Source: Echinarachnius parma | Lineage: Eukaryota; Echinodermata; Echinoidea; Clypeasteroida; Echinarachniidae | Assembly: GCA_037951105.1 (NCBI GenBank) | Contig: JBAMJV010007503.1 | Span: 105,800 to 169,799, forward strand | DNA: 64,000 bases | Reading direction: 5' to 3' | In this document: positions 1,031 to 55,444 of the stretch, piece by piece | How the letters are laid out: the number at the start of each line of letters is the position of its first letter | Position numbering within the stretch: position 1 is the stretch's first letter | The notes under the pieces: generated by a model | Told to the model about the DNA's origin: nothing | Database searches by the model: none | The model's input: only the letters and a program-made list of their open reading frames with translations | Program-made: the position numbers and the translations under genes

Positions 1031-1720
1031 TTAAAGGGATAGTACAGTTTTGGTCAAAAATAATTATTAGTAACTAAGACTTGTAAGTTACCACTAAAAA
1101 ACTAACATTTATAATTCAATGATACTTCAATGGTAATAAAAACATATAAACGGTTAAGTTACGGGGATGTTTTCATTTTAAAAACAGCTGTTAACACTAG
1201 AAGGCGCCTTCCAGACACCTGAAAGTTTCGATCATTTATATTTAAAAAAAAACAGTGAATGTGATAATTATTCAATAGAGAGATCATCAAAAACAAGTTT
1301 AAAACCATGTTGGTATCTTATTTTTTTTAAATGTGAAGGATTTTAAAATATTTTCTTAATTGATTGTACAAAAGTTATTCTCCAACATTTATTTCAATTG
1401 GATATATTTATTGATATTTTAGCTGTTTATGAATCGATTTTGATCAAACAAAGTTAATTATGTTTTTTTAAATTGTGTGCTCTGTCAATTTACTGGCCCG
1501 TTCAGGCAACAAAATTCAACAGAATTTGTTCTGTTGTTTGGGCCACCAGATTTAGGTTTCGGGCCACTCAAAGTTGGAACAATCTTGTTTTTACTTGCCC
1601 GACTGGGCCACAATGGTTATGCAAAAAGGTTAATATCTAGCATTGACTTAGGTTTTCATTACCTCACAATAAAATATGTCTTGAAGCGCCCTCTGAACCA
1701 AAACTGACGTATTCATTTAA
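1031..1720 (+). mobile_element. Non-autonomous DNA element, family F (copy 1)
   Basis: It starts with TTAAAGGGATAGTACAGTTT and ends with AACCAAAACTGA followed by a decayed terminus and TTAA at 1717-1720. That TTAA is shared with the neighbouring family A dimer. Two more copies lie at 28877 and 37912. The core includes the conserved GTTTATGAATCGATTTTGATC region. A 150-base repeat related to 14219-14385 sits at 1489-1640. No coding sequence. Confidence 0.75.
1489..1640 (+). repeat. Dispersed repeat (copy 1)
   Basis: GGGCCACCAGATTTAGGTTT and ATCTTGTTTTTACTTGCCCG match 14219-14385. It lies inside the right part of the family F element. Confidence 0.65.
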
Positions 1721-3118
1721 AGGGACTAAGTAACATTGTCCAAATACTCCAAATCCAATTGGAATTCTAGCGGTTTCCTCATACCTTGTTGTTTTCGTAT
1801 TAACAATAAAAGCATGGGGCAGGTTTCGGTTTTTCAAATTTCTATTTCGTTCAAAAGATATTTACGATTGAAGTGTTCGGATGTCAAATTATCTCGGGAT
1901 CTCTTAAAGGGGCCCTGCAACCCAAATGCATGTTGACCTCTGTTCATCTGTATTAGTGTACACATTCAATATTTTGTAAACGGTTTGACCCAAATATGTT
2001 TTGTATATTTTTAAACATTTTATCATTTATTTGTCTTCATGTTGCTAAGCCCCACCTCCTAAAAAACCCTCCAGAGCAACTTCTATTGTTGACCTGCAGT
2101 GACATCATTTGTCAATCACTGGTCACTTACCATGAGATTAACAAAAGATGAAAGTACAAAAAGAACATCCACACAAAAGCATGCCCTGCATACCTCCATG
2201 TAATAGCTTAGACAGTGCTTTTCTTCTGACATAGCAACAGCTATTGTAATTGAAGTTGTGTGAGTTGGTATTCTATTCAACCGTGTGATGCTATTGTGTT
2301 TAGGCTAATCACAATAGCATGGTAGCTGACCAGTGATTGACAAATGATGTCACTGCAGGTCAACAATAGAATTTGCTCTGGAGGGTTTTTTAGGAGGTGG
2401 GGCTTAGCAACATGAAGACAAATAAATGATAAAATGTTTAAAATATACAAATCATATTTGGGTCAAACCGTTTACAAATATTGAATGTGTACACTAATAC
2501 AGATGAACAGAGGTCAACATGCATTTGGGTTGCAGGGCCCCTTTAAGCCGTGTACAAAGTAAGTGCAATGAGTAAGTGAATATCACTTTGCATTTTCGCT
2601 CATTTCTCATCCAAATAACATCCAATTAACTTGAAATGTTCACACATTACTTTCTGGACATATCAGATCACACAAATACACATTTTTTTATTAACCACGC
2701 ATCACTTTTTGCACTTGTCAACAAAGTTACAATATCTAGTAACTTTGTTGACATGTGCAAAAAGTGATGAATGGTTGATGCAATGTATATTGTTGTTATC
2801 TCATAATATATGTCCACAGGGTATTGTGTGAAAATTACAAGTCAAATGGACATTGTATATGGCCAAGTAATGAGCGAAAATGCAAAGTGATATTCAGTAA
2901 CTCACTGCACTCACTTTGTACACGGAAGAAAAACTCGCCCGGAGTTTTTCTTATCTGAATACTTCAATCATACATATCTTTGTAACGAAAGGGAAATTTG
3001 AAAAACCGACACCTGTCCCATGATTTTATTGTTAATACGAATACAACAAGGTATGAGGGAACCGCTAGAATTAAAATTTTATTTTGAGGATTTGGACAAT
3101 GTTACTAAGTCCCTTTAA
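1717..3118. mobile_element. Head-to-head dimer of a TTAA MITE (family A), with a nested MITE
   Basis: TTAA lies at both ends (1717-1720 and 3115-3118). Inside the ends are AAGGGACTAAGTAACATTGT and its complement. After the nested element (1904-2546) is removed, about 760 bases remain, twice the roughly 375-base unit seen singly at 52810 and 30880. The two units are inverted and meet at about 2730-2750, where the inner termini (CAACAAAGTTAC and GTAACTTTGTTG) face each other. No ORF. TTAA duplication plus AAAGG-type ends fits Kolobok/T2-like MITEs. Confidence 0.8.
1904..2546. mobile_element. Nested foldback MITE (family D), TTAA-flanked
   Basis: TTAA at 1904-1907 and 2543-2546 brackets two inverted arms of over 200 bases that are about 97% identical by eye. 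The arms begin AGGGGCCCTGCAACCCAAAT and end near CACTGGTCA around 2130 and 2322. The short loop between them carries no ORF. The insertion lies inside the first half of the family A dimer, so it is younger than that element. High arm identity also suggests recent origin. Confidence 0.88.
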
Positions 3119-5140
3119 GGATGACTTGGGTGGGCGCCAAGTAACTCATCTTCAGAAGTTTACACTTCGCGAAGTCTGTATGCACTTTGATATTATCACT
3201 AGCATGATCAAGCAGCAATTACTTTACTTGGAGACAAAACACTTTTAGTCACAAGTTCAAAACGGGTTATCAGATCTATGCCCGAGAAGGACAAACAAAA
3301 TGTTCGGTTAACAAAGTAAAGAAAGATCATAGTTGAAGGCGATTACCAACATGAGTCACAATCTCAAAGGAAAGAAACAATATACAATGTATGTGTCATC
3401 GTCATTCGGATGTTTGAAAGTGGAGAGAAAAGTTAGTATTAATTAGTTCAGCATGATTATGAGTACGCTTCATAGTCGTATATACAATACAAATGCATTG
3501 CATCACATTGATGAAGAGCATTTATTTTGGGGTCCGCTCCAAAACACCAAGTTACGCATCTAATTCATAATTTTGAATGTTTGTTTCTACGAATCTTGCA
3601 ATTTTCGCTGTTCAGCAGTCATGACCCAACAGCAAATTATCACCTTAATGATATTTGAAAGAAGGAATGTCAACGCAATTCTGAGGGAATACGATTTTTC
3701 TTTATTTTGTGCTAAATCCGCAAATTTCCAGTGCTGAAATTCATATCCGGGATGTAATGCGATTAGGAAGGAGAAGTGAGAGGAGGAGTGAAATTGGGAT
3801 GTGCACGTATGATACGGTTTGGCTATTGACCATGTCCAGAGCAGACAGGGGTCTCTGTCCCTGTCCCTTTCACCTATCTCTCCATGGCTTGGGACTCTAC
3901 GATGATTGTATGGGTTGGCGGGCAGACTATTCCCAGGGACTGGAAGTTTTTTTTTTGCTCTAACAGCTGAAGCTTTGCTGACTTTTGACCAAAAAGTAGC
4001 TGTTTTTTGACAAAATGTGATTGTTTTGGCTGAATATTTGACGTGATTTCTACCCTGATATTAAACGTTTTCAAAATTCAGGGGGGGGGGGGGTGGGGGC
4101 TGCAGCCCCGGTGTACCTCCACCTCGTACACACATGCATGGGGGCTTATAATATTATACAGAGTAGCAAAATCAAGAACAACATTGAAGACATGGTTGTC
4201 GTCTCCGAATTAGCGTCTACCATTTAAATTAAAGTCTTAAATGACATCTACTTTAAATTACTATCGTATAATTTTTCGTTTGTTTAGTGTATGAAGAGTA
4301 TTTGTTGCATGTATCTAGTGATTATGAATACATCGTTTTATTCCATCCTGCACATGTTCGCCAAAAGCTTTTCACCCATTCAGAGCAATGCGTTTTTACT
4401 GCAACAACTCAGTATAATTTGTACATACGCCAAATATTACTTATTATTCACCAGTATAAAACTGTATAATTATTACGATGGAATTTCTAATTTGATCTCT
4501 ATATCATTATATTTATTTTGTTATAAGATCCTGTCATTCCAATTGCATAATTATGTGTAAAAAGTATACACAGCGTTCATCCAAATAACCATATGTTTTT
4601 GCGAAGATAGGGAAATGGGATGGGCGGAATCGTCGCAGCAATAATACTTTATTCGTTTGTAATTATTGCTTTGTTGCTTCCCTATTTTAAAAAAATGTTA
4701 CCACGAGGACTGTAATTCGCATTTGTGTGGGACTCCTTTTGTTTGGCAAGTCAAAAACTACAAATAACAATGAAGAATTGAAAACGCTTATAGTGTGTTT
4801 TTAGTTTTGATTGAATATTCGTTAACATTCTAATGGGTTTTAAATTACGAGTTTACGCGTAAAGTTGCGTTTGGTATAATATACATATTTTTTAAAACAA
4901 AATTATGTCGTCGCTCCGTTGTGACGTAACAAAAAATATTTGTAAATTATGTGAAGTTTGAGAAGTTAAATGATCTGATTTAAACCGGGATATATTGTGC
5001 TAGAAAAGGGTTGAGCAGGTTCATGACAATTAAAGGAACTAAACTAGGCGAATGAAATCATAAATACTACCCATCATCGCGCATGGTTAGGCCTATAATA
5101 GGCGTACTAATTACTAAACACATGTCGTGGGTTTTCGAAA
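3119..5140. other. Gene-free stretch with one poly-G island
   Basis: A G tract at 4081-4097 is followed by GGGGCTGCAGCCCCGG, a palindrome also hinted at near 14700. The rest is unique AT-rich sequence with only short chance frames. Confidence 0.55.
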
Positions 5141-5390
5141 GAGAAGGGCGCTAAGCAACTTTTTGCAATTTGGAGATGATCATGATAATGATTGTTTAAA
5201 TTTTGAAGGGCTATATATGCAAAACCAAAGTAGCTCTTTTTCATATTTGATGAATATTCCCCAAATTAGACAAAAAAGTCATAGTTATTATTTTTTAAAT
5301 GTCGCACTATATATACGTAGAAGAACCTCCTTGCCTACAAGATGGTTTGCCTAACTCAATTTAGCCACAAATCGACTTAACGCCCTTCTC
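5141..5390. mobile_element. MITE with GAGAAGGGCGCTAAG ends (family G)
   Basis: Terminal inverted repeats GAGAAGGGCGCTAAG and CTTAACGCCCTTCTC enclose 220 AT-rich bases. A second, decayed copy starts at 19746 and shares the CTACAAGATGGT and ACTCAAT segments near its right end. Confidence 0.75.
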
Positions 5391-6217: not shown

Positions 6218-6225
6218 TGTATCAA

Positions 6226-6491
6226 GCCAGTAGCCTGGGCGTACACCCCCTCCCCCCCCCCCCCCCCCAAAAAAGGAAAGAAGAAGAAAGGTCCACTTTT
6301 CATCGGTATGGGTCCTCGCTTACCACCCCCCCCCCCCCCCCACCCCTGCTTACACCCCTAAACCATGCGGTCACGGTCTTGGCCACGATCGGTCTCGGGC
6401 CACTTTTGTAAATTACGCAACTCCCCCCCCCCCCCCACCCCCCCCCCCCCCCCCCCCCCCATGAAAAAGACAAATCCTGACTACGGGCCTG
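6226..6491 (-). mobile_element. CAGGCCNGTAGCCAGG poly-G element (copy 1)
   Basis: Read on the minus strand it starts CAGGCCCGTAGTCAGGATTT, then GTAATTTACAAAAG and GCCCGAGACCG, with three long G tracts and AAAAGTGGACCTTTCTTC. The 8-base flanks TGTATCAA and TGTATGAT agree at six positions. The same order of blocks is found at 33824 and 57033. Confidence 0.78.
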
Positions 6492-7040
6492 TGTATGATG
6501 CTGGGATACAGTTATACATGATATTGTGTCTGCAACATTTTTCTCCCTCAAAGGACGAGACAAAAGTTTCAATGGGCTCAACTAAGTTTTCATTTTTTAA
6601 AATTTTGTTATAAACTTCTCTTGTCTCAACTATACAAGTGAATGTTCGTACGGTATAATTGAACTTGATTTGACTCTGCATGCACACATTGGGTTCATAC
6701 TGAAGTCAAGAACAGTAGTCGCAGTATAATAACTAAATAACTGCATCTATTGTGGCGGTAAGGTATACTGTACTCTAACCAAAGGAAGTCTACCCCTATC
6801 CGGTTTATGTTTTTTTTTTTTTTTTTTTTTTTTTTGGGGGGGGTGGGGGGGGGGGGGTTATTTATGTATTTTTTATTTGATAAAAGATTTCCCCTTATGT
6901 ATGATTGATGATTGTTCTTTTCAAACCATCGGGGTGGGGGCACGTACGTGCCCCTAATGCACCCCCCCTTTCCCCTCTGCAGACCAACATTGATTGTCAA
7001 TGTTGGTCTGTACATTACGCCCTTTGCATTCCCCGGATTC
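6492..7040. other. Stretch with a T/G homopolymer block
   Basis: Near 6810-6857 about 25 T are followed by G-rich sequence. Near 6980-7010 ACCAACATTGA and TCAATGTTGGT form a hairpin. GGCACGTACGTGCC at about 6939 is a palindrome. No gene. Confidence 0.5.
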
Positions 7041-7670
7041 ACATTTATTACCGCCTCCCCCCCCCCCCCCCCCCCCCCCCCCTCGATTGTAAATAATTCG
7101 AGGCTATGCCTCTACTCCAAGGCACGTATCCTACTGCCGCCCTTTTGCCACGGGCCATACACCACAGACAACTTGTACAACATCCCACTGGGAACGGTAA
7201 AACTTCATTGGCTTGGTTGCCATGGCTACATAGACCGCACTCCTCTCAGTCCTCTCGATCACATCTATTACCCCCTCCCCCTCCCAGTTTGTAAATTCGA
7301 GGATACTCCCTATAGTACAAGGCAAGTATATCCCTGCCGCACACAGCCACAGGCCATAAACCACAACCAACTTGTACAATTTCCCACTGGGAACGGTAAA
7401 ACTCCATTGACTTGGTAACCATGGTTATATACACCGCACTCCTCTGGATCACAACTATTACCCCCCCCCCCCCCCCCCCTTCTCTACCCCCGTTAGTCTA
7501 TTCGTGGCTACGCCCCTTGTCCGAGGCACGTATGGCCCGCCGCCCACCGCCACAGGCCATAAACCACAGACAACTTCCAACACACAAGCAGCTACAACAC
7601 CCCACTGGGAACTGTAAAACCCCATTGACTGGGTTATCATGGATACATACATCACTACAACTCGATGTTG
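7041..7670 (+). repeat. Three-unit tandem repeat of ~190 bp with poly-C junctions
   Basis: CCCACTGGGAACGGTAAAAC recurs in each unit (about 7189, 7384 and a variant near 7600). It is preceded by CCACAGGCCATAAACCACA-like sequence and followed by CCATGGNTA. Units start at about 7082, 7275 and 7462 and are joined by C tracts of varying length after TCTATTACC. Frames through it show chance proline-rich peptides only. Confidence 0.8.
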
Positions 7671-8159: not shown

Positions 8160-8162
8160 CGT

Positions 8163-8935: not shown

Positions 8936-9307
8936 TTAAAGTGATCCTTAAACTTCATAAGGTATTTCCAAATTATTCCCAAATTAGAGATTTCAATCAT
9001 TATTGTACCAAAACCATCAGATTCTCCAATCTGTATAACGTGTGAAATGTTCCTAGAAAAATAACGCTGTTTACCTATTCACTAGTGAAAAGAGTGAAAA
9101 TTGATGGCAGATTTGGTCATCGACTGTCCATTAACTTTGAACACGATTGAAAAGCGTTCTGGAACGCTTTTCAATTCAATCATAGATATTTCCATTGGAG
9201 TCCTTTGGCAAGCCAAACAACATAGTACAGGAGAATAAAACATTGTGACAGCTCCACGTAATTTGGTTGAACTTGACAAACTTAACGAAGTTAATAGATC
9301 ACTTTAA
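8936..9307 (+). mobile_element. TTAA MITE family B (copy 1)
   Basis: TTAA at 8936 and 9304 flanks AAGTGATCCTTAAACTTC at the left and GAAGTTAATAGATCACTT at the right. The 372 bases share the TTTCAATCAT...TGTACCAAAA and CAGCTCCACGTAATTTGGTT blocks with the copies at 21295 and 24794. Confidence 0.8.
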
Positions 9308-10914: not shown

Positions 10915-11607
10915 CATAATTTGTTCCGCTTGTATTAAAATAGATACAATACACTATATGTTCGTGTTCTTGCTAATAAAGTAGCTTCGCCGCTCCCCCC
11001 CCCCCCCCCCCGCGGCTCCAATTGCCTGTATGACAAATAACCCGTCGTGTCCCCTACACGTTTCATATCATAAACTAAGTTCTCCCGCGTATATCTTTGT
11101 TCATATTCTTGAAAGGAATAGTATATATCCGTCTATACATGTATTTGCATACTACATGAGCAGATACTTCCCCCATCCATTCTACCCCCACCCCCGATAA
11201 TTTGTTCCGCTTGTATCAAATACATGCATTTGCATACTACATGAGCAGATACTTACCCCATCCATTCTACCCCCACCCCCCATCCCCGATAATTTGTTCC
11301 GCTTGTATCAAATTAGATACAGTACACTATGCTCGTGTTCTTGCTAGCTTCACCGCTGCCCCCCCCCCCCCCCCGTGTCTCCAATTGCCTGCATGACACA
11401 TAACCCGTCGTGTCCCCTAAACAATTAATATCCAAACTAAGTTCTCCCGCGTATAAATGTTTTCATATTCTTGTGAAACCCGATGATATATTCCTTTGAA
11501 GGGAATAGTAGCCGTGTATTTGAGCAGATACCTCCCCCGTCCATTCTGCCCCCCCCCCACTCCCCACCCCCCCCCCCCCCCCACTCCCCCACCCCCCCCC
11601 CCCCCCA
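10915..11607 (+). repeat. Tandem duplication of ~370 bp with poly-C tracts
   Basis: GATAATTTGTTCCGCTTGTA recurs at about 10916, 11197 and 11288. CCAATTGCCTG, ATAACCCGTCGTGTCCCCTA, AACTAAGTTCTCCCGCGTAT and GAGCAGATAC follow in the same order in the two full units. A short extra piece lies between them. Each unit has one C tract of 13 bases or more, and the array ends in a 40-base C-rich block (11545-11607). Confidence 0.82.
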
Positions 11608-12959
11608 CCCCCTCGGCGTCTCTTCTGGTACTGCATGGTAGCTTCGTGGCCGACTTAATACATCTTACCACAAGCTGGCGCAATTATAGTATCGTGTACG
11701 GTAGGGCGAATGAGATACTGTAGTGCCCAGAGACGATGGTCAGCAGGTCAGTGAGCTATGCAAATAAACTACTACGGTTCGGTGGGGTAATTAGATGACT
11801 GCGCGACCTGTATACACGGCTGTACATCCATTGCCCGTTGTATAACCGCAGCTAAATTGAAGATGTCGCATTTTGTCGTCGATGCACTTACAAACACGAT
11901 GCCAATCGCAAATAGCGATCATTACCATACCATCCGCGTAATATAAATATTGATATTTATCAAAACCTGGGTAGTTTCGCAACGTGTTATATCTGAAATG
12001 GTTTCTCGATATATTATTTGTTTTATCTACTCCAATTTATATTCTTACAAATACTTTTACGGCGATAAATCGTTAGGCAATGCTCGGCGTCGTAAACAGG
12101 CAATTGCCATTGCTGACTTTCCCTTTTCTTCGATCTGGAAGACGACCACGGGGTGGGAGCGACTCGGGAATGCCTTATTGTCCTCCGCAAAACGTATATC
12201 CTTCGATCGCGACGGTCGGGGAGTCGCCGAATACTCGGGGTTAGGATATCTCGAGTGGGAACCATTTTGGGGGGTTGAAGCTTACCGTATTAATATAATA
12301 GATAATCTAACGATTTGTCAGTAAACATCCGAGATTACCCTACAGGTTAAAAGGGCATCATTCTGTATAATCAACATTTTATTTTGATAAAGTTGTGATA
12401 ACTAAGTTATCATTATGTGATACAACGCTCAGACACATCAGTATCAAACGCTATACATTTCATTTGTATATCTTTCGTATGAATATGATACAAATTACTG
12501 CTGAAAACTGCTTATCTATACAAACTTTCACCTAAAATATCAATAAAATAAGAGACAATATGGGGCCTACAATTTCGATATTGGCAGAATCTTCGGAAAT
12601 TATTTGTACGAACGCAAATTTCACGAAGTTATGCAGGATTACTTTGCTGCTCATCCATTGGTCAACCCCGAAACAAAGGGAATAATAAATGTTTCTAGAG
12701 TATCGCTTTTCATTGGTGGAATCTCGAAGTAGGCGTGGTCTCACGAAGTACACACGCGATATGCAGCGAAAAAGCGGGGCTTGCACGTTACCGTGACTGT
12801 ACCGTACCGTACCCCGGCGCGCTAGCTAGAAATAACACAGTGCACATTGGCTGTGCAGCAAGGTCAGGGTACTGGAAGCGTAGGTTGATCTGATTCAGTT
12901 ACAAACAAATGGAGGCAAAATAATACCTCTAAATTGTTTTCTGAATAGATCCCTTCCTC
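11608..12959. other. Stretch without recognised gene, rising GC towards the right
   Basis: A 124-codon frame at 11950-12324 shows no recognisable domain and is likely chance. TGTACCGTACCGTACC near 12797 is a short direct repeat. It may be upstream sequence of the candidate gene at 13.5 kb. Confidence 0.45.
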
Positions 12960-19975: not shown

Positions 19976-20332
19976 TTAGCTCTAGCAGTTCTCATATACC
20001 TTGTTGTTTTTTGTATAACATAATGTACAAGCATGAAAGTTGGAACAGGTCTTGGTTTTTTTTTCTAATTTCTATTTCCTTCAAAATATATTAATAATTG
20101 AAATGTTCGGATTTGACATTATCCACTGGATAAATAAAACTAAAAAGTCTGTGCAATGAGTTAGTGAATATCACTTTGCATTTTCACTCATTATTCAGTC
20201 ATGACATTCATTTACAGTACCATGGAATTTTCACAAATAACCCAGTGAACATATCAGATTACAAAAATACAGGTATGTCATGTCAACCTTTCTTCAGCTT
20301 TTGCACATGTCAACAAAGTAGCTACCCTTTAA
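19976..20332 (+). mobile_element. TTAA MITE family A, 5'-decayed copy
   Basis: The sequence aligns with the family from GCAGTTCTCATATACCTTGT to the end GTCAACAAAGTAGCTACCCT followed by TTAA (20329-20332). The left terminus is lost. Confidence 0.7.
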
Positions 20333-20360
20333 ATCTATTTTAGTACTTTATTAGAATTAA

Positions 20361-29418: not shown

Positions 29419-29659
29419 AGGGTTTCTTAGCGCTGATAAATAGTAATGATAACAAACGCAATATAATTATGAACAATGTACACCAATATGACGTAAATTT
29501 AAAAGAGACAACATACAATTATACTGTATAAACATGCTTTGATTGATCTAAATATAATCAAATACATAAGCAGTGCCAAACCATTTGAGAGCCCCCCCCC
29601 CCCCCCCCCCCACCCCCCCCCCATTATTCCAGCAATACTACGCTGCTGGTCAGGAATCA

Positions 29660-37011: not shown

Positions 37012-37632
37012 ATTGCATCGAAATCCAACCAAATGCTCGGGCTTATCAATAGGAATCTACGACGCTCTTCCCAGAAGATCCGACAACAAGCCTTCTTCTC
37101 CCTGGTTAGACCTCGCTTGGAATATTGTGCAACAGTCTGGAATCCATCTACAAAGAAGAGCATCTCAAAGATTGAAGCTGTACAGAGGCGAGCAGCAAGA
37201 TTCGTTCTTCAACAATACCGCCATTCTGAGAGTGTGTCTGCTATGATTCAACAACTTCAATGGAGTACACTGGAAAGACGCAGACACATCTCCTGCCTTA
37301 GCCTCCTCTACAAAATTCAGAATGACATGGTAGCAATTACACCTGACCAACTCCTCACACCAATGGCCCCAAGCATCACCAGACAATACCACCCAAATAA
37401 GCTCAAGCATATACATACTCGAACTCAGCTTTACCAGAACTCCTACTTCCCACACACTGTAACAGCATGGAATGCGCTCCCCAATAATATCTTGGCTTCT
37501 ACATCACTAGGAGCCTTTGCGGGAGCAGTTGCCTCAATCGGCAATTAATGGGACACCTCACCGGTTCCCCTCGACTCTACGTCCTGACTGATGGACCCTG
37601 TCGAGTACCCAAGTAGAAGTAGAAGTAGAAGT
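37012..37632 (+). mobile_element. 5'-truncated LINE copy: C-terminal part of the ORF, 3' UTR and AAGTAG tail
   Basis: The frame 37012-37548 encodes about 178 residues and ends at a TAA. It matches the region behind the reverse transcriptase of jockey/CR1-like LINEs: MLGLINRNLRR, then LVRPRLEYCATVWNP, IEAVQRRAARFV, and LERRRHISCLSLLYKI. The catalytic RT and the endonuclease are absent, as expected for 5' truncation during target-primed reverse transcription. About 60 bases of 3' UTR follow, then a tail of AAGTAG hexamers (about 37610-37632). TATGGA occurs at both sides (37006 and about 37633) and may be a short target duplication. The peptide part overlaps nothing in the LINE at 61624, which is cut before this region, so whether they are one family cannot be told here. 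Confidence 0.88.
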
Positions 37633-37911: not shown

Positions 37912-38473
37912 TTAAAGGGGTAGTTCAGTTTTGGTATAGAGGGCGCTGAACGAAAAACAAAATTGTGAGATAATGAAAAACTGAGTGTAAAATTTGAAAG
38001 AGCATACAATTTTAATGGCAGAATAAACTTTTATTTATCAAAATCGGTTCAGAAACGGCAGAAATATCAATAAATATATCCGATCGCAATAAATCTGGGC
38101 CCCAGATTTATTTGATGATTTTTTAAAAAAATGTAAAATGCTTACACTTTTTTCAAAAATTGTCAAAAGAGGTTTTTAAATAGTTGTTGATGATCTCATT
38201 ATTTCAACAAAACATCACATGCATAATTTTGTATGAAAAAAGGCTGAAACCAATGCTTTTTTAGAAAGCGCCCTCTTGTGTTTTAATGGCTCTTTTTTAA
38301 TGATATGTAACAGGTTTTTTACTTTGTCGTTTGTAATTGTCTATACCTTTTGAGCATGGTGGAGTTATAACTATTAGTTTGTAATGTTATTGTGCAGGTT
38401 TTGGTTGATAATGCTCAGCCTTATCAAAGGTTGGCAAGCATGGGGATGAAGAGGGCGGTTTACACTATCCTAA
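37912..38473 (-). mobile_element. Non-autonomous DNA element, family F (copy 3)
   Basis: It begins TTAAAGGGGTAGTTCAGTTT and ends ACACTATCCTAAC. The interior is the reverse complement of copy 2, for example AAAATCGGTTCAGAAACGGC. No ORF. Confidence 0.75.
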
Positions 38474-38760: not shown

Positions 38761-39381
38761 TTAAAGGGCCTTTTGCAAGGCAAATTTCAAAAGTTGCGAG
38801 GTTATGGTCTTATATGAAAGAAATGCCATTTAACAGCATGCCTGACAAAATTAGGGCTTGAAATTTTCGCGGATTTATAGACCTCAAAATAATAAAACGA
38901 CACAGCGCGTTTAATTGTGCATTATACGAGTATTCACCCGGTGCGAAATTTCGCTCACGGCGCATTCCACGGAGTACCACGTTGCTATGCGTGACCGCTA
39001 CGTGACCCGCGCACAGATTGTGATTGAACAACGGCGTAAGCGAATACTGAACAAAATAACCAAAACTCGCTAAAACTGACTACATGTAATTGTATATTCT
39101 TCATTTTCGAGACCATTTCCGTGCCATACCTTTACAAAATATTGTCGGCTTTACAATACCTTTACAAGAATAAGTACAATATTGTTGTAATATTATGCTA
39201 AATCAGTTAAACTCCTTTATTGACCGATATATAGTTTGGTGGAGGGGCGCAGTTGTTTTTACTCGTAGAATCCAAATTACAGGGCTGTTCGATCTGAATT
39301 TTTGAGTGTGTGTTACATTCATCCTCGTCCGTCTACTGGAAACTGTTCAGACGATTTGTAAAAAGCGGACAGTCCCTTTAA
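38761..39381 (+). mobile_element. TTAA-flanked element, family E
   Basis: TTAAAGGGCCTTTTGCAAGG opens the element and GCGGACAGTCCCTTTAA closes it. Only about 8 terminal bases are clearly inverted. A related 5' end recurs at 40256-40370 (GCAAGCCGCACTACAAAAGT, TTATGACCTCAAAATA). No ORF. Confidence 0.6.
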
Positions 39382-39673
39382 AAGGGTTAGTGGACCAAAT
39401 GTTATACATTGGCGAGTCAGAAGATTTTTTCTTTTAGATTTTAAATCTGAGTTTTCATCTCGCTACATGAAACTGTTCAGGTGATTTGTAAACCGAGGAT
39501 ACCCACCCCCCCCCCCCCCCTTATTATATCGATCCTCTGATTGGAGTGAACAGTGGGTGGCATTGTGTTACTAGTAACTAGAGAAGTTCTCATCATTTAT
39601 AGTCAAAGGCATATTACAATGTGGGGTGAGAGTGAGAAGGGAGTTAAGTTGACTCTTGGCTAAATTGAGTTAA
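39382..39673. other. Short spacer with a C tract and a local duplication
   Basis: GAAACTGTTCAGGTGATTTG at about 39468 repeats GAAACTGTTCAGACGATTTG at about 39345. A 16-base C tract follows. Confidence 0.5.
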
Positions 39674-39883
39674 GCCCGGCGCAGACAGAACCGACTCGAC
39701 CCGATCCGACTGGTTTTCAGTCAGGCTAGGGTCAGTTTCGCTCAGTAGGAGCCGAACCAACGTGTTGAATTGGCCTCGAATGATCCCCGACTGGCAAAAC
39801 CGGAGTCCTGAGGCAGCGCATACTGAGTTAATCAGGCTTCACACCAGTCGGATCGGGTCAAGTCGGCTCTGTCTGCGCCGGGC
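39674..39883. mobile_element. MITE with GCCCGGCGCAGACAGA ends (copy 2)
   Basis: It has the same inverted ends as the copy at 20361 (GCCCGGCGCAGACAGAACCG, and ...CGGCTCTGTCTGCGCCGGGC) and the same interior (GAGTCCTGAGGCAGCGCATA). 210 bases, no ORF. Confidence 0.85.
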
Positions 39884-40255
39884 ATAACACATACCATATC
39901 CCAGGTCATGCAGGTCGGAGCCTCCTGTTTATTTAATGCGAAATATTCATAAACTCGTTATGTATTCGTCAAATAATATTTTGTTTTTAAGAAAGCTAAA
40001 TTGTGTTTCTACATTGCTTTTATACAAACTTTAAACATGATCACCTGCGAAGTACAAACAAGCGACTTAGCGCCCTTCTTTTCTAAAACGATAAGACTTT
40101 GTGATACGATGTCGTTGACATTTCAAAGAATCGAATTTCATCGGGAACATAAAAGTAATCTGCAAGCTTTGGATCAAACTTTAATGTCACTAGTGGGACA
40201 ACATCATTTTAAGCCAAAATACATATTGCATGTAATGCACAATATTATGATTAGT

Positions 40256-40380
40256 TAAAGATATTGTTCTACTTTTGCAAGCCGCACTACAAAAGTGGCG
40301 ATACTATTATATATGAAATAAAATACCATTTCAAAAATAGTCTGAGAAGATTATGACCTCAAAATACCTCGAAATACTGT
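40256..40380 (+). mobile_element. Fragment related to family E
   Basis: It begins TTAAAGATATTGTTCTACTT and continues with blocks shared with 38761-38890 (TATATGAAATAAAATACCAT, GACCTCAAAATA). The 3' part is missing. Confidence 0.45.
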
Positions 40381-41143
40381 TTCGTGGAATTATAATTTAC
40401 ATTTTTATCCTGGCATAATGAACGATCATTAGGATAATCTAATTAGCCTAGAAGCTGTTTTGCTTACATCATTTAAATTCTGTATCACCATAATCACTGT
40501 GAACTCTACCATTTTCATCAACTTGTTGTACGTAGTATCCCTGTGGTTCGTGGTATGTTTTTACTAATCTTGAAGAATGTTTGCAAAAGAAGGACACTAT
40601 CTTTAAAAGTATGTGTTTTGTAACAAAAAAACAAACAAAATACAAAACAAAAATTGTGTCCGTTCCATGCACGATGAGAAAGTTGAGACCATCATGACGA
40701 AGACGAATAGTACAGGTATTTCACGAAGATTATACCCTCCGGGAACCCCCACGATAATGCTACTTTTCATCAAATGATCATTTCTTAAGACATTCCATGC
40801 CATACAGGTCTATTAATTTGCTATACACTGCATAATACATTGTACAGACCCAGGCACAATTAGACGTAACCCGTTCCCTTCTAGAAATTGCAAACTCTAT
40901 AGAGTTCCATATACAGGACCGACCAGGTTCCCGTATAGCAATGGCCTACATCTGTAAACCCCATGTTCACTATCATGATCATGCAGTAACACTGATTTCC
41001 CATATGCATACAACGCTAATTACGTGAGATGGAGCAAGGGGAGGAGGTTTGCAACCGGAGATACTTGAAAGTTAGACTTTATATTATTATTTATTATCTG
41101 GCTGACAAGATAAAAGGATGAATAAGGAGGGTTCAGTAGCATA

Positions 41144-41395
41144 CGGGTGTTGGATAGCATAAACGGATGCACGACGGATAGAAAATGTGCACAATTAAAT
41201 TATCCGGTGGTGGAAGTTGTCCCCACTGATGCGTGCACAGAACTTTCCGCTGGATAAAACAGCGGACATCGCCTGACAAGGAGTGCATTCGCCGAACAAG
41301 AAACGGACAAGAAACACATACGAACGGATTACAATTTTGCTCTCTCTCCGTCGGGCGTCCGTTTACTCTATCCAGTGATATGTGACAAAGGCTTA
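41144..41395 (-). mobile_element. MITE with AGCCCGGTCACATATCA ends (copy 1)
   Basis: The right end CCAGTGATATGTGACAAAGG and the interior ACGGACAAGAAACACATACG and TTAAATTATCCGGTGGTGGA are shared with copies at 41398 (opposite orientation) and 49816 (same orientation). Confidence 0.78.
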
Positions 41396-41397
41396 AT

Positions 41398-41637
41398 AGC
41401 CCGGTCACATATCACCGGATTTCGTAAACGGATGTCCGACGGAGAGCAACATTTTCAATCCGTTCGTCTCCGTTTGTATGTGTTTCTTGTCCGTTTCTTG
41501 TCAGGCGATGTAAGTTGTGGAATGTGTTGTGCATGAAGCAACGGAGACGACTTTCACCACCGGATCATTTAATTTCGCAAATTGTCTATTCGTCGGGCGT
41601 CCGTTTACGCTATCCGGTAATATGTGACCGAGCCTTA
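41398..41637 (+). mobile_element. MITE with AGCCCGGTCACATATCA ends (copy 2)
   Basis: AGCCCGGTCACATATCACCG opens and CGGTAATATGTGACCGAGCC closes 240 bases. It abuts copy 1 in inverted orientation with two bases between. Confidence 0.82.
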
Positions 41638-43875
41638 AGTAGTGAATGTAATACAAGCCGGTAATACAAATCAGTGTTCTCACCGTGATAAATACTTTGA
41701 TTTGGTAAAAACAATATTAGAAGGTTATACTCTAACCATCAGCATTATCACAAAAAAAACCTTTTCTCTGCGTCAACAGGGATATCATTTCAATCAAATG
41801 TTTGTCACGTGACCTCTAATGCGGAAATGATTGCAGGGACAGAAAGTCTCAACTCGTACAGGGTTTCCAACATTCTATCCAACCTTCGGGGGGTTCAATT
41901 CCGACCTTGTTTGTTTTAGAATTGTCAAGAAGGTTGCAAAACAGAATAATGTCGATTTTTATTCATCCAGAGGTTGCTTCTAATAGCTCTTGGAATAACC
42001 AAACTGGCTGAGACAATGACATTGAACCGGTGTAGATTTATACTGCGAACTATTTGTTTCTAAGCGACACGAACTATTCTAATGTGTGTTTGTTTGTTTG
42101 TTTGTTTTCTCTCAGCAAATGAAGGCATTTCACCCTATTTGTTTGTTCCCAATATAATATATACTTCATAATGTATAGTGATGTTTGTTTGTTTTTCGCT
42201 CGGCAAAAGAAGGCCTTTCACCCAGTGTGTTTGTACCCATATACTTCATAATGTAGTGATGTTTGTTTGTGTTTCGCTCGGCAAAATAAGGCATTTCATC
42301 CTTTCCCTTCTACATATTGTTCCCTAGATATACAGATATACTTCAGACATAGTGAACCAAGTTCAGATAGGCATGCACTAGGTTAATCGCGACTCTGTAG
42401 AATCGGCATCTGGTTTCGTATGTTGACCGCTGGCTACGGAAGGTCCCATTCGGCATTAGCGCGGTTGAACGTCCTAATCAAATGACTTAACCCGTTCCCT
42501 ACTGAATAATGCCATCCCCATAGTGTAAATACAGAGCCCACCAGGATCCCATATACAATATAGGCAATGGGTTAAATGATGTCTTGTGCTTCATCTGTTT
42601 CTGTTTGTTCACTTTCGACCAATCATAATACGTGTCTCGCTATAAAGGGATGTGATTACATGGACACTCTATAGTCATGATAGTGGTATTATCAAATTGT
42701 TATGCTTGAAGCATATTATTGAACAATTTAAGCAATAACAAAATATCTCAGTTACAATGCCCTGGTCACTGACAATTAACTGTCGGTGCAAGGCAGTACA
42801 AATAGCACATACAAAATAAAGGTTGCAGTGTAAAATAACTATTAAACGTTGCAGTGTAAAATGACTATTGTACGTTCACAGCGTAAAGTGAATATTGTAT
42901 TTCCTTACATCACGTGACCTTTCAGGCTATTAAAATGTTTAGTTTATTTGGTTGCCAAACAATCACTTTCGACCAATCAGAATTTAGCGTTTTTGAGGAG
43001 TATTCCGAAGTACATACTAAATGCGTAATAACCAATAAAAAACATTCGTATCGCGTGACATTATATCTGGGCTATTCAAATGTTTGTGCTTCGTTTGTTT
43101 TCTTCAGTTTACTTTCGACCAATCAGCATGTAGCGCTGTTAACAAGTCATTCGTCACTGTATAAACTTGCAAATGAGGGCGTTTGCGAACATTGTATTTG
43201 ACATTTATTGTTGACAAACGTTAACTAAAACAATGTGGGGGTTTGCACCACACTGTATCCACACGATAATTTAAAACCTCTTAGAACTTGCATGTGTCTG
43301 GTACGTTAAAGAAATCGTGTCGTCGTGCACAAGCAGTCCTGTGGGAGGCGCCATATTTTGAAAAGCACCCCCATCGTTGTGTATATACGCTAGAGAGAGT
43401 ATAATTATGAATATATCCTCCTGCATACATTATTAAGGCATTTGGTACCACTCGATTAGATTCAATCAACATGATCAAGGTGATCCAATGCATTGTAAAA
43501 CCAAAATCAACCAATCACTTGGAGCTTTCACACTAATCTCTTTGACCTTGTTGTTTGGATTATGGTAACAGAAGTATGGAACTGTTTTGATTTTTCAAAT
43601 GTCTCCCTTTTTATGGAGATATTTATAAGATTGAATTTGAAACGTCTATAGACACTTTCGACCGTAGTCAAGAGTATCCGAATTCGGATATTCAATCGTC
43701 CATAGTATCGAACGATCGGGATAAAACATATTTCCTCTGTTTTAACAAGGAGGTACTAGTACCTCCTTGGTTTTAACTAGGTTAATATTATGCTATTCTC
43801 TTTCTATGAAGATCTCACATATCATACTCAAGAATCTTACAGTGAAATTGGTATATGAGTTAAGTCTCAAATATT
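41638..43875. other. Gene-free stretch with repeated CCAAT-type words
   Basis: ACTTTCGACCAATCA occurs at about 42612, 42965 and 43111, with GACCAATCAG-type context. A perfect 24-base palindrome lies at 43746-43769. A worn family A fragment (GGAACTGTTTTGATTTTTCA) is at about 43540-43650. No gene. Confidence 0.45.
42085..42312 (+). repeat. Three-unit tandem repeat with GTTT runs
   Basis: Units of about 93 and 78 bases plus a partial third share GTTTGTTTGTTTTTCGCTCG, AAGGCATTTCA and ATACTTCATAATGTA. No function seen. Confidence 0.75.
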
Positions 43876-44676: not shown

Positions 44677-44953
44677 TACACACTAAGAAAAAAAGGTAAA
44701 ACAAAGGTGCAAAGTGATGCAACACTGGCGGCTCCTTTTAAGGTATAACTTTGCACCCTCAACATAGGGTGCAATTTTGCACCCCTTCTTGATGGTGCAA
44801 TCTTGTACCTTTGGGGTACAACTTTGCACCTTTAAAGGTGCAAGATTGCACCCTATGTTGAGGGTGCAAAGTTGTACCTTAAAAGGAGCCGCCAGTGTTG
44901 CATCACTTTGCACCTTTAAAGGTGCAAAGTTGTACCTTTTTTCTTAGTGTGTA
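44677..44953. mobile_element. Near-perfect palindromic MITE with TA duplication
   Basis: TA lies on both sides of CACACTAAGAAAAAAAGGT and its complement. Almost the whole 277 bases fold back on themselves, with repeated GGTGCAAAGTTGTACC and GGGTGCAA units. A TA duplication suggests a Tc1/mariner-type origin. No ORF. Arm identity is high, so it may be recent. Confidence 0.87.
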
Positions 44954-47451: not shown

Positions 47452-47515
47452 GTAGCGTGGTCGGACTGATTGGGGGGGGGGGGGGGGGGGGCACGCCAAT
47501 TATTGGTGGTACCTG
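47452..47515 (+). mobile_element. Solo end of a hAT-like poly-G MITE
   Basis: TGGCGTAGCGTGGTCGGACT, a 20-base G tract, then GCACGCCAATTATTGG. This matches the left end of the element at 17343. The other end has been replaced by a family A MITE. Confidence 0.6.
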
Positions 47516-47517
47516 GT

Positions 47518-47865
47518 GAATGGTTGATGAAAATGTGTATACATGTTTGTGATCTGATATGCCCACTTAGTGATGCGTGAACATTCCACGGTAAATGATT
47601 GTCATATGACCGAGTAATGGGCGAAAATGCAAAGTGGCATTTGCCAACTCACTGCACTTACTTTGTACACAGTTTTAAGTATCCAGTAGATAGTTAAAAA
47701 TCCAAACAATGCAATCATAAATATCTTTATAACGAAGGGGAAATTCGGAAAACCGAAACCGGCTACATGTTTCTACTTGGAATACGATTACAATGAGATA
47801 ATGTGAGAACACTAGAGTTTTAGGTAAGTTTTGTCAATTTTTACAATGTAACTAGATTCCGTTAA
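47518..47865 (-). mobile_element. TTAA MITE family A, truncated copy beside a poly-G element
   Basis: Reverse-oriented family A sequence (GGGCGAAAATGCAAAGTGGC, ATCATAAATATCTTTATAAC) ends at ATGTAACTAGATTCCGTTAA, with TTAA at 47862. The other end runs into the poly-G element at 47452. Confidence 0.7.
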
Positions 47866-49815
47866 AATATATTTCTTTATTTTTCACAGATGTCCCCTTA
47901 TGTTTTGTATTGTTGTATTTCATTATTATTAGGGGACTCGTGTCCCTTTTGTGTGGACGACTACTACAATTTTTTCTTTCAATTAATTGCTCCTTGCAGT
48001 ATTTATGTCTCAACTTCTAAATTTCTCTGAAATTCTAGAGCTATATCACATAACGCACCACGATGATGAAACTCCCCAATAAGGAAGGCAATAATAACAT
48101 GAATAAGGCAATAGAGTACAGTCGTTTGCTCATTGATATATAATCTCATTATTTTGTTAAGTGCAAGTATATAAATGACTATTCTCAACAATCAATTTTT
48201 AAATAATACGCATTATAATTATATTCAGTAGCATAGATTCTCGCAAGAATATTGTAGATGCTTTTTTATAGTTAACCAAAAAGCTTTTATCATCCAGTCG
48301 CATGTCTCTCAAATAATGATGTTTTTATTTTTACCTCATAATAAAATGAAATCAATTGGGACAAACCCAAACATATAAACAATGCATGCACGCATATTAT
48401 GACCATAGACGCATGACGCAAAATGCGCCAGTTCTGATTTGTTCCCCCTTTTTTTTCTGTTAGATACGACAACCATTGTATGCAAAAATGTCTTTATATT
48501 TCAGTCAGCAGCTTCGATCACTATATTTATAATTTACAAATGTAAAAAGTCAAAACTCTTTACATACCGTATACACGGACGTGAATACTTGGGATGTATA
48601 GGATAATAGGAGCAGTCTGAATATCCGTACCTACTGCCCAGTATTATGTAATGCTTTTTTTGTGCGCCCAGGCCTACAATGTACATACCGCTGAACCAGT
48701 GAGTATTTAGCACCGTGCGCAAGGCGTTCGCATGCAATTTGTCACCGAATATCATTTTACGAATCCGAATTACATCTAATCAAGATCACAACACGGATTC
48801 TAAATTAATTTGTCTTCTTTTCAAATACCATAGTCATAATATACAAATAAACTGATAATTTCCTAATATAGTAGAATTTCGATGATAATCACGGCAGCAT
48901 AGAGATTCAATGTTGAAAGAAATGCGTATATTGAAACTTTTCCTTGGTCTTTTGTTTGTGTTAGTCGTTGTTGTAGCAATATTTGTGGGAAATTAACCAA
49001 ATATAACAAATTTTTTGACGAAATAATATTGTAAATGATCGCCCAAGGACAGGCTGAGATGCGTTTCTTTCTTCTCATGGAAGGCTGAAGTATAAAGCGA
49101 TTATTAATTCAATTGAGTACACTAAAATGTATTTCCCATAGGCGATAGAAAGTTAACGTGACTGGCCACTTTCAATTACTAATGTGGCTTTTCATATTAA
49201 CACTATAATTATCTCCTCTGGGAAACACCTATTTTCTACTAAATTTACACGCAATGCCTAGTACCTAATGTTTCCAAAGCGTATACGCAACGGCCGTAGG
49301 ACGGATACAACGCATAATGTCAAGGCCAGAATACGCCTCAAGAACATGCAGAAAACAATTAATGTAATTGATCATAATTATTAATTTGCATTTATATTAA
49401 GGTAAATTTATGTTGTTATTGTTTGAACTATTGTATTGTATACCTGAAATTGATCGCCATTTTCAACAAGCGATTGTGTTTTTATCCCGGGGTTTTATAC
49501 ATCAAAAGAACACAATTGCAATTACATAATATAATATTGTAGTATATTAGAGGTAATTAAAAAGATGGAGTAATGCTCTACTTAAATAACAATGACAAGA
49601 AAGTTATCCTTGTGTTGTGATTCTGTCATCGACTGTATTGAAGCTAAGTCGAGTCATTCCGCGAAATAACAAGTCATCGCAATTCAAAGCCCCCATTAGA
49701 AATCGACCTTGTTGTGTCTCGTACATGATTAATGTTGAAGAATTCCTCGAATTTCAACTATTCAGAGTTACATTAAAAGCTGCTCAATCTAACAGTGATA
49801 ATCCTCCACCTGCTA
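47866..49815. other. Stretch without recognised gene
   Basis: Apart from the dispersed motif at 48711, only unique AT-rich sequence. The frame at 49617-49883 runs into a MITE and is unlikely to be real. Confidence 0.5.
48711..48760 (+). repeat. Dispersed GCACCGTGC motif (copy 2 of 4)
   Basis: GCACCGTGCGCAAGGCGTTC then GCATGCAATTTGTCACCG. Confidence 0.55.
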
Positions 49816-50056
49816 ATGGCCCGGTAAGGTATCAACGGATAGCGGAAACGAATGCCCAACGAATAGAAAATTGGCGAAATTAAATTATCCGGTGATGAAA
49901 GTCGTCTCCATTGCTTTATGTACAGAACATAGAACAACGTACATCACCGGACAAGGAACGGACAAGAAACGCATACGAACGGAGACGAACAGATGGAAAT
50001 TTTAGCTCTCCGTTTGACGTCCGTTTACGCAATCCGTTGATATGTGACCGGGCTAT
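49816..50056 (-). mobile_element. MITE with AGCCCGGTCACATATCA ends (copy 3)
   Basis: The right end is CCGTTGATATGTGACCGGGC, with TTAAATTATCCGGTGATGAA and ACGGACAAGAAACGCATACG inside. The left end is partly decayed. Confidence 0.75.
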
Positions 50057-51248
50057 AAGAAGTGCTCAGAAAGAAAATAAAAACGGTTGAAGTTACAGAA
50101 AACGTCAATATTTACTGATCGAATTAGCAACATTCTTGCTTGTTTGCTGGACAATACCATGTATTAATGGAAAATAAAAATCGTGGAAACTTTTCATCTT
50201 TAAAAAAACAAAAATTCTGATTGTTATTGTTTTCGTAATATTTCGAGCTCTCATATTGAAACATGACTCTTTCTTAGTATGCTACGTTCAAGGTTCGTTA
50301 TCAAATTGAGGAAAAGATTTACCAAACAAGGGGCATTTCAGAGGTCAAATAAAAATAGCCGTATGTGTATTCATGTCTAATATAAGCTTTCTTATACAAC
50401 CGTTTTGGCGTAAATAATTATCAAGATATGGAAATAACTAGGATTTGATTATGTATGTGCATGTAAACCCCATGTTCTTGTTTGATGCTTTTTTGTTAAT
50501 TTCTTAGCCCGAACAAATCCGATCCACAGACTAGTTTGTAAGCATAATTAAACTGACATGTTATTCGCCAATCCATCTATAAAACGATTTGGCACATGAT
50601 AACGCATTTACCAAGTACCGCCGCTAAGTGCTTTTATATCTCGACCGAATGTGCATTCAATATCCAGTCATAGTGTTTCTTTGATCTTCAATCTAAAACA
50701 TGATAGGAAGAAAAATAGGAAAAAAGGGAAGAATATAAAGTAGAAGAAAACAAAACAAGGCAAACAAAGAAGTGTAAAAATGAGAAGGAAAACTTTACGA
50801 AAAGAATATAAGACAAAACGTTTGCAAACAGTTTGAAGTGCCGCTGACTGCAAATTGAGAAGAAAAAACAACTTTACGCGAAATCCATCGCAGTAGCACA
50901 ACAGAATACATGCATTCACCATTAAGAATAAACTGAGTAAATTGTCGACTATTCCTTGTAAAACGCCCAGACATGGCAGTCCACAATGTTATCTTATACA
51001 GAGTTAATCAAAATGCATGCAGAACACGTAGTGTTAACTAATAATGTCCCTGAAACATAAATCTTGTCTTTCTTCCAGATCGATCAATCACTAAATCACG
51101 CACGAAAGGAGAGCCGTTGAAGTCAAAGATTGCGAACTCGATTCATGAAATTACCATGCCCATCGACCAGGTGACGATAATGTAAAGGCGTCGTGTTTTA
51201 CATTAACCCTTCAGGATGCACGTTTGCGTTGTCTTTAATAGTAGACCA
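50057..51248. other. Stretch without recognised gene
   Basis: AT-rich unique sequence with a purine-rich block at 50700-50800. No gene. Confidence 0.5.
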
Positions 51249-51258
51249 CACAAATTTG

Positions 51259-52015
51259 GGTGCGGTTCGTTATTCCGAAGGTTCGTTATTCCGAAGGTTC
51301 GTTATTCCGAACACGCAAATTTCCTATACCTGAGTGTTCGTTAATCCGAAAATGAAATAGGGTTCGTTAATCCGAACATTTGTTGCATTATTCCGAAGGT
51401 TCGTTATTCCGAAGGTTCGTTATTCCGAAGGTTCGTTATTCCGAAGGTTCGCTTTTCCTAAAATGAAATCGGGTTCTTTATTCCGAAGGTTCGTTATTCC
51501 GAAGGTCCGTTATTCCGAGGGTTCGTTATTCCGAAGGTTCGCTATTCCTAAAATGAAATCGGGTTCGTTAATCCGAAAATGAATTTGGGTTTGTTATAAT
51601 GCTATAATTGCATATAAAGAGATAAAATAAACTTAAATGTTTGATTGGTCTGGCCAAGGGAGGGAAAGGGGGAGGGGTATGCTTAATGCAGGCTGTAAAT
51701 TAAATAAACAAAACACAAACTATAGTATTATAACAAGCCCGATTTAATTTTCGGAATAACGAACCCGATTTTATTTTCGGATCAACGAACCTTCGGAATA
51801 ACGAACCTTCGGAATAACGAACCTTCGGAATAACGAACCCGATTTTATTTTCGGATCAACGAACCTTCGGAATAACGAACCTTCGGAATAACGAACCTTC
51901 GGAATAACGAACCTTCGGAATAACGAACCTTCGGAATAACGAACCTTCGGAATAACGAACCTTCGGAATAACTGAACCTTCGGAATAACGAACCTTCGGA
52001 ATAACGGACTGTAAC
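51259..52015. mobile_element. Foldback element with arms made of 16-bp tandem repeats
   Basis: The left arm (51263-51600) is built from GGTTCGTTATTCCGAA units, partly varied as GGTTCGTTAATCCGAA and interspersed with AAAATGAAATCGG. The right arm (about 51737-52010) is the same unit in reverse. A 135-base unique spacer separates them. CACAAATTTG stands directly repeated at 51249-51258 and 52016-52025. Its core CAAATTTG is a palindrome, so it could be target duplication or part of the ends. Arms of short tandem repeats are the mark of foldback transposons such as sea-urchin TU and Drosophila FB. Confidence 0.85.
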
Positions 52016-52117
52016 CACAAATTTGTATGTTATGGTCATACGTGGGAGCGTACAGAGTGGTCGGGATCTGCGTACCCGCGAACGTTCTTAATTAGTTTGT
52101 GCGCGCTAATCCATATT

Positions 52118-52166: not shown

Positions 52167-52537
52167 ACGCATCCAAACAACCTTTTTAGAGCAGGGGCTA
52201 GTCACGTAGACCTACAACTATGTTCAATTGAGTTGTCAGTCCAACTGAACTTATCGATTCGAATCATAATCATATTGATCGCTGGTTGGTCATTATATAA
52301 GCCAAGTGTAAATAAGGGTGCATAATGAAACGTAAGGATTAGATGCCGGAATCTTCTTGTGTGAGGCACACCCATTGGCGCGCACGTGAGGATACTATAT
52401 ATAGGGACTGAAAGCCCGAAATAAAAATTCAACCATGATGTTACTCAACCCCCTGCAAAAGAAAGAGTTTAATCAAAGCAGCGTAACCGCAATTTTAAAT
52501 TGAATTTGAAACTAAACGGCGTTTTTCTCTTTCGTTT

Positions 52538-52813
52538 TTAAAGGGATCTAGTAAAATTGTGAACAAGTAAGATCTCAGGCGGTTCTCACATACCTCGTTG
52601 CATTTGTATTCCAATATATCCATTGAACAGGTTTCGTTTTTCTTCGAATTTCGCTTTCGTTATTATGATTCAAGTGATCGTATTTGATATTCTCCAGTGG
52701 ATAATTACAACAGTGTATGAAGTAAGTGCAATGGGTTAGCAATTATCACTTTGCATTTTTAGCTCAATGCTAGGTAATATGACATTAATTTACAATGTTA
52801 TTAGATCACTTAA
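52538..52813 (+). mobile_element. TTAA MITE family A, internally shortened copy
   Basis: It begins TTAAAGGGATCTAGTAAAAT and ends in ATTAGATCACTTAA. The right TTAA (52810-52813) is the left TTAA of the next copy. Family blocks (GGTTCTCACATACCTCGTTG, CACTTTGCATTTTTAGCTCA) are present but about 100 bases are missing. Confidence 0.82.
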
Positions 52814-53183
52814 AGGGGTCTTAGTAACATTGTCCAAATCCTCAAAATTCTAGCGGTTCCCTCATACTGTTGTATTCGTATTACCAATACAATCGTGGGA
52901 CAGGTTTCGGTTTTTCAAATTTCCCTTTCGTTACAAAGATATGTACGATTGAAGTATTCAGATAAGAAAAACTCCGGTGGAGTTTTTCTTACCGTGTACA
53001 AAGTGAGTGCAGTGAGTTAGTGACTATCACTTTGCATTTTCGCTCATTACTGGCCATGCAATGTCCATTTGACTTGAAATTTTCACACAATACCCTGCGG
53101 ACATATGAGATAACAGCAATATACATTGCATCAACCATTCATCACTTTTTGCACATGTCAACAAAGTTACTAGATCCCTTTAA
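52810..53183 (+). mobile_element. TTAA MITE family A, best-preserved copy
   Basis: TTAA occurs at 52810-52813 and 53180-53183. Termini are AAGGGGTCTTAGTAACATTG and CAACAAAGTTACTAGATCCC. At 374 bases it serves as the reference unit for the family. A small internal hairpin (AAACTCCGG/CCGGAGTTT-like, near 52970-52990) is conserved in the dimer at 1717. Confidence 0.87.
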
Positions 53184-53659
53184 AGTCTAAAAAAAATGTT
53201 TAAAACCTTACATGGTTCGATATTTCAGATACAGTAGCAGTGCTTTTTTTTTATTGCCGCTAGGTGTAATTAATGACGGGTGCGCGCATGCACGGCCGGT
53301 GGCAAGAAAAAGGCGAGAAGTGACATAAAAATCGATAAGATCTTGAAATGTATCGTCCCGAACATTAGAGAGAAGATTGATTAAACTCCTTTTCTGGCTT
53401 TGTACGGGTCTGCGTGTTCGCAGTCTCGAAAAACGTGATTCTAAATAGGCATTTTTTCTCCTTCGAACGTGGTTTAAAGTTAGGAAAGGGTGTCGGTTTT
53501 CGTTTCTGTTTTTTTTTTATGTTCACGCCCGGTGCTTTACATTTCAACCTTGTCCCACACAGCACAAGTCTACCTCGTATCTAATGCGAATGTTATTATG
53601 GCCCAACAGTCCATGGATTACAAGAAAATTCTTCTACTTATATAATACTATATATAGCC

Positions 53660-53950
<291 letters not shown>

Positions 53951-55038: not shown

Positions 55039-55087
55039 TGCACCGTGCATCAAGTCGTTCGCAATATGGCATCGCGCATCTGATTTA
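55039..55087 (+). repeat. Dispersed GCACCGTGC motif (copy 4 of 4)
   Basis: GCACCGTGCATCAAGTCGTT, CGCAATATGGCATCGCGCAT, CTGATTTAA, running directly into the family C MITE. Confidence 0.6.
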
Positions 55088-55444
55088 AAGGGTACCACCA
55101 CACAAAAATAATATTCTTATAAATGAAAGATAACATCTTTAGTAGTCCATTCCATTAACAAGTTCAGAAAAATATAATTCCAGAAAAAAATATATAATTG
55201 GAAAACGCATCACCATTCTAAAGCATGCGTTCATGGGTCTGCGTGTACGAAGAGCGAACGAATCGTCCGGGATTCTTTTGTCTCCAAACCACTAAATAAT
55301 ACTGGTTCCGTAAGTGGTGGTAGTTAATTGCATTGTTTATGGATTACACAACCCTTTGCAAAATGTTGGGTATCTATTTGATATCACAAAATGGTACCAA
55401 AACATATAATTATATGTTGTTCTTTGCCTGGTGGTCCCCTTTAA
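55085..55444 (+). mobile_element. TTAA MITE family C (copy 2)
   Basis: TTAA lies at 55085-55088 and 55441-55444, with termini AAGGGTACCACCACACAAAA and CTGGTGGTCCCCT. This copy is 53 bases shorter than the first, mainly through a deletion after TGTCTCCAAAC. Confidence 0.85.

Follow-up and report, generated by a model that had tools for sequence, protein, structure and literature searches.

Six families of repeats with unrelated interiors (A to F) have TTAA-flanked ends in common in the stretch of DNA that we analysed, which comprises 64,000 bases (C7492:105800-169799) from a 1.2 Gb genome (14,790 contigs) and is called the window throughout. With both strands pooled, the window contains 22 copies of the octamer TTAAAGGG, where Markov shuffles lead one to expect 2.7-3.1, and 20 of these 22 octamers are ends of the families named in the original prediction, which had proposed unrelated families with common TTAA-flanked ends and is thus borne out on this point. 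Our results make it probable that the six families are nonautonomous Kolobok-type MITEs, like the T2-MITEs of Xenopus, and that Kolobok transposases move them in trans. This is an ordinary and abundant class of repeat. Its kind is already described, since 16 major T2-MITE subfamilies, some of them old with young members, are reported for X. tropicalis in PMC6004289.

Families and copies in the window

All-versus-all BLASTN of 24 representatives, taken from the window and from fetched loci, gave no cross-family match among A to F at E<=1e-3, so the interiors are unrelated as had been predicted; the sole match that crossed family labels joined D to an element of locus L027 (70% over 153 bp). Within the window, BLASTN groups the A, B, C, and F copies into the predicted families. 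Of D and E, the window has one copy each; D is repeated across the genome, and BLASTN locates E at two further positions of the genome sample (20 loci, 200 kb, or 192.5 kb without N, contig starts only). Typical sizes are about 387 bp for A, about 545 bp for F, 360-434 bp for C, and 643 bp for D. The elements recognised are as follows.

1031-1720, + strand: F copy, right end decayed, TTAA at 1717-1720 in common with A (TIR score 11; BLASTN over 1031-1491)
1717-2736, + strand: A copy split by D, without its inner end where it meets the next copy
1904-2546, + strand: D element within A, inverted arms of about 230 bp (perfect 30 bp TIR)
2734-3118, - strand: A copy, inverted relative to the copy at 1717
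8936-9307, + strand: B copy with TTAAAGTGATC ends (TIR pair)
19981-20332, + strand: A copy, left end decayed (BLASTN; right end TTAAAGGG)
21295-21671, + strand: B copy (TIR pair; BLASTN to B)
22659-23071, + strand: C copy (TIR pair)
24794-25139 (approximate), + strand: B copy, right end decayed (BLASTN)
28877-29421 (approximate), + strand: F copy, right TTAA decayed (BLASTN)
30880-31267, - strand: A copy (weak TIR score of 9; full-length BLASTN to A; alignment)
About 35880-36126, strand not given: candidate element with a decayed left end (TIR-like match with a local score of 12, no chance control)
37912-38428 (approximate), - strand: F copy, one end lost (BLASTN)
38761-39381, + strand: E copy, TTAAAGGG at both ends (E-type ends also in L014 and L016)
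40255-40606, + strand: further TTAA element with AGATA ends and an E-like TIR (TIR score 16)
47514-47865, - strand: A copy, ends decayed (BLASTN)
52538-52813, - strand: A copy abutting the next A, with a common TTAA
52810-53183, + strand: A copy (TIR pair; at least 39 more genome copies, nearly full-length, listed at 94%)
55085-55444, + strand: C copy (TIR pair)

Fourteen of the 16 positions listed in the original prediction begin with TTAAAGGG, TTAAAGTG, or TTAAAGGTG, and the other two (19976 and 47518) fall in A copies whose ends are decayed or missing. Several boundaries had to be redrawn. The element placed at 1717 is indeed an A, but forms part of an inverted A pair (1717-3118), one copy of which carries D. 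F does start at 1031, but runs to 1720. The positions 52538 and 52810 are two A copies as stated, but they abut with one common TTAA. Finally, the complementary sequence expected at the other edge is decayed or missing at the right ends of the elements at 24794, 28877, and 37912, and several older copies in the window have lost one TTAA. Two candidates, at 40255-40606 and about 35880-36126, were added to the predicted set; by eye, the likeness of the former to E is confined to the TIR. The E pair itself was not detected in either TIR scan of the window, and its left TIR lacks, by eye, some bases present in L014.

Two pairs of neighbouring copies (F at 1031-1720 with A at 1717, and A at 52538 with A at 52810) thus abut, each with one common TTAA. 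Among 1,911 TTAA sites, six are flanked on either side by end-like sequence, whereas independence of the two sides would predict 2.2. We considered an insertion preference for the ends of other elements and set it aside, as the excess is weak and chance probably explains at least the site at 58557. The same A-A pair is also found on a second contig (L003, compared with window 52418-53304); the right flanks are about 92% alike along 143 bp, and this is perhaps a haplotype or a duplication.

A common terminal motif with divergent inverted repeats

Family A accounts for eight of the TTAAAGGG octamers in the window, C for four, F for three, D and E for two each, and B for one. The octamer at 36126 has a possible decayed partner, and that at 63089 has no partner above score 9. 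The enrichment extends to the genome sample, where 56 octamers were observed against 9.0 expected and TTAAAGGG has the highest observed/expected ratio among all TTAA+4-mers seen at least 15 times. Some of these octamers are not element ends; for instance, three in L018 start the same local repeat. Density amounts to 0.34 per kb in the window (22 per 64 kb) and 0.29 per kb in the sample (56 per 192.5 kb). Because the two values are close, the window is typical of the genome, and what had been described as a very dense array is normal for it. By simple arithmetic, the excess corresponds to some 150,000 element equivalents genome-wide, a rough figure because the sample consists of contig starts only. 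The representatives cover 8,007 of the 64,000 bases in the window and 17,101 bases in the sample, values that are biased upward because the representatives were taken from the same sequence.

A scan of the window for TTAA-anchored inverted repeats (threshold 9) gave scores from 9 to 30 for the recognised elements, which included copies of A, B, C, D, and F and the element at 40255-40606, with the A copy at 30880 reaching only 9. Three shuffled windows yielded three to four pairs each with a top score of 10; the unshuffled window has four more pairs at score 9, which appear to be chance matches. Moreover, a motif-free scan of the window and the 20 sampled loci (TTAA anchors, spacing 150-1200 bp, score of at least 11) returned 34 pairs, to be counted as copies and not as independent families. 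Of these, 23 start with AG, including 17 with AGGG, and three start with AGTG; one of the AG pairs, in L018, sits within a perfect palindrome. The control anchors TATA, AATT, and ATAT returned 13, 19, and 22 pairs, and their most frequent starts had counts of 1, 1, and 5, respectively. By eye, the 17 AGGG pairs comprise nine of F, three of A, three of C, and two of D or D-like elements, and one of the three A pairs (52538-53183) bridges two abutting copies.

The ends had been read as TTAA followed by AAGGG, but they parse instead as TTAA|AGGG or TTAA|AGTG. Considered end by end, A, D, and F mostly show AGGGA or AGGGG, E shows AGGGA and AGGGC, C shows AGGGT and AGGGG, and B ends are often AGTGA. 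Hence, many B ends (AGTG), the left ends of C (AGGGT), and one end of E (AGGGC) deviate from a strict AGGRR terminus. Beyond about five bases the TIRs of the families diverge.

These features agree with the predicted T2/Kolobok-type ends. Kolobok elements are described as duplicating TTAA and as having 5'-RR ends, unlike piggyBac (PMC9587614), and the AG start of 23 of the 34 pairs of copies displays the 5'-RR termini of the superfamily. T2-MITEs of Xenopus (T2-A1/Xmix, T2-C, and others) are described as many subfamilies having TTAA and terminal AGGRR-type sequence (PMC6004289). The ends found here differ from these in reading AGGGA, AGGGG, or AGGGT together with AGTGA, and the likeness lies in ends and target, not in a sequence alignment.

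Target site, empty sites, and age of copies

TTAA stands on both sides in all seven A loci fetched outside the window and in 10 out of a set of 12 D loci that includes the one in the window; both sets are best-ranked matches. The two D exceptions are L035, without the left TT, and L033, in which the left edge was not scored. Relatives without the insertion were sought for 32 elements by fusing their flanks with one TTAA and comparing these with the window and with the sampled and fetched loci. Clean relatives with a single TTAA were obtained for three of the 32, one D and two A insertions. For the D inserted in A, the A copy of L020 retains one intact TTAA with an ungapped junction (81% over 247 bp); at this site most other relatives do not read an exact TTAA, and the 30880 copy reads TTCA. 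The A copy of L004 has an empty relative at 39989-40087 of the window (82% over 100 bp, one TTAA); at the same site L026 reads TTGA, and a second window match (5125-5270) is gapped nearby. The A copy of L007 is matched by L010 (77% over 86 bp, one TTAA), which contains a second match as well. Thus, the comparison of sequences supports a duplication of TTAA upon insertion for D and A, and bears out this part of the original prediction for these two families only.

Other junctions were less clear. The A copy of L005 is located at the TTAA that terminates an F copy, and a short match in L002 reflects the adjacent F-like end. In L038, where D lies within an A-like end, four to five extra bases relative to the relatives make the site ambiguous. 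Junction-spanning matches of L003 and of the window at 52.5 kb were discarded as empty sites, as they derive from element repeats and are uninformative.

Judging from pairwise identity, some A and D copies are young. Outside the window, seven A copies that rank best among the 39 near-full-length copies listed are 97.7-99.2% identical to each other (4,223 candidates in the genome search, of which 40 were scored). For D, besides its own match, at least 39 further full-length or near-full-length copies at 98-99% were found among the 40 that were scored of 1,596 candidates. Such lists favour similar copies, so they indicate that young copies exist and not that all copies are young. Inside the window, A copies differ by up to about 30%, and the C and F copies compared are 65-91% alike. 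Old families with young copies are likewise described among the Xenopus T2-MITEs (PMC6004289).

The proposed mobilising transposase

In the mechanism that we favour, Kolobok transposases supplied in trans would cut at the terminal AGGG/CCCT ends, and the excised element would insert into TTAA with duplication of the target. The enzyme would be a Kolobok one as judged solely by end motif and target. Like autonomous members of the superfamily, the elements would combine TTAA duplication with 5'-RR ends (PMC9587614); unlike them, no long coding frame was noticed in elements of A to F. In the six-frame translations of L001-L028, the 41 open frames of at least 130 aa that passed our filters included, by eye, none recognisable as Kolobok; non-LTR reverse transcriptase-like frames were present. 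The four open frames scanned, out of 23 in the window, had no Pfam match at E<=0.01, an Rfam scan of the window returned no family at gathering score, and two family-end patterns had no match in viral contigs, a set that may omit records of the source genome.

Whether one enzyme serves all families is a separate issue. Common ends, together with interiors that are unrelated and TIRs that diverge after some five bases, are what would be seen if, as had been proposed, one transposase moved all the families; it would require only TTAA and AGGG. However, autonomous Kolobok elements of Xenopus have AG and TTAA in common and otherwise distinct TIRs (PMC6004289, Table 5), so the pattern observed would also arise from several enzymes; common AGGG ends do not call for a single one, and we regard a single enzyme for all six families as unlikely. 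Still a little less likely, in our opinion, is one permissive transposase of the Kolobok type that reads little beyond AGGG next to TTAA and moves six or more MITE families whose origins are unrelated. Since the Xenopus TIRs differ beyond AG, the shared AGGG is maybe a superfamily signature used by several transposases. More than one Kolobok transposase may thus be involved, each reading the subterminal sequence of its own family, with AGGG and TTAA as superfamily-wide features.

The TTAA target alone would also suit piggyBac-derived MITEs, which likewise duplicate TTAA. The CMITEs of corals, linked to piggyBac, are described as several TTAA-duplicating families with common end motifs (PMC2872659), and TTAACCCA is enriched in our genome sample (17 observed against 4.2 expected). 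This origin is nevertheless quite improbable for A to F. PiggyBac ends start with CC[C/T]T according to PMC2872659, whereas those found here start with AGGG; only one of the 34 TTAA pairs starts with CC (CCTG, in L010), and it belongs to none of the six families. Nine of the 17 TTAACCCA octamers come from that same locus, and the other eight are scattered over seven loci and are unexplained. Besides their CCC ends, the coral elements are reported to have interiors conserved between families, the opposite of what is observed in A to F (PMC2872659). The least probable alternative, which we hold to be very doubtful, is that some of the families correspond to long terminal direct repeats (LTDRs) of KolobokP elements, occurring solo. 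These repeats measure about 450 or 660 bp, have short TIRs of their own, and occur alone (PMC9587614), and C (360-434 bp) and D (643 bp) come near these sizes. On the other hand, D has inverted arms of about 230 bp, A and F are about 387 and 545 bp long, and no family copies flanking a coding interior were noticed on incidental reading of the window and the sampled and fetched loci.

Nonautonomous Kolobok-type MITEs mobilised in trans therefore remain our preferred reading, and the present data document, for a genome of 1.2 Gb, several TTAA/AGGG MITE families that are abundant and partly young. If matching transposases are found, this would be a good genome in which to ask what portion of the Kolobok TIR, apart from AGGG, mobilisation in trans requires.

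Several other repeats and frames lie nearby. A palindrome of 277 bp (44677-44953), 82% self-complementary and with TACACACTAAG ends, lacks TTAA flanks and is probably another type of foldback element or MITE. Two repeats with GCCCGGCGCAGACAGAGC inverted ends (20354-20582 and 39667-39891) are 85-89% alike; both have TTAA before the left end, and their right sides read TTAT and CTAA. An inverted-repeat family with CCGGTGGTGG and GGTCACATAT motifs is present at 41152-41644 and 49810-50064, and a large inverted array of 16 bp units (TTATTCCGAAGGTTCG) spans 51247-52029 in two opposed blocks. Long poly-C or poly-G runs are many across the window (e.g., 6228-7495, 11531-11624, and 33898-34136). Read by eye, reverse transcriptase-like frames in both the window and the sample and a GPCR-like frame in L012 suggest an animal genome. 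The open frame at 37000-37548 had no Pfam match at E<=0.01; by eye, it resembles a reverse transcriptase of non-LTR retrotransposons in its C-terminal part.
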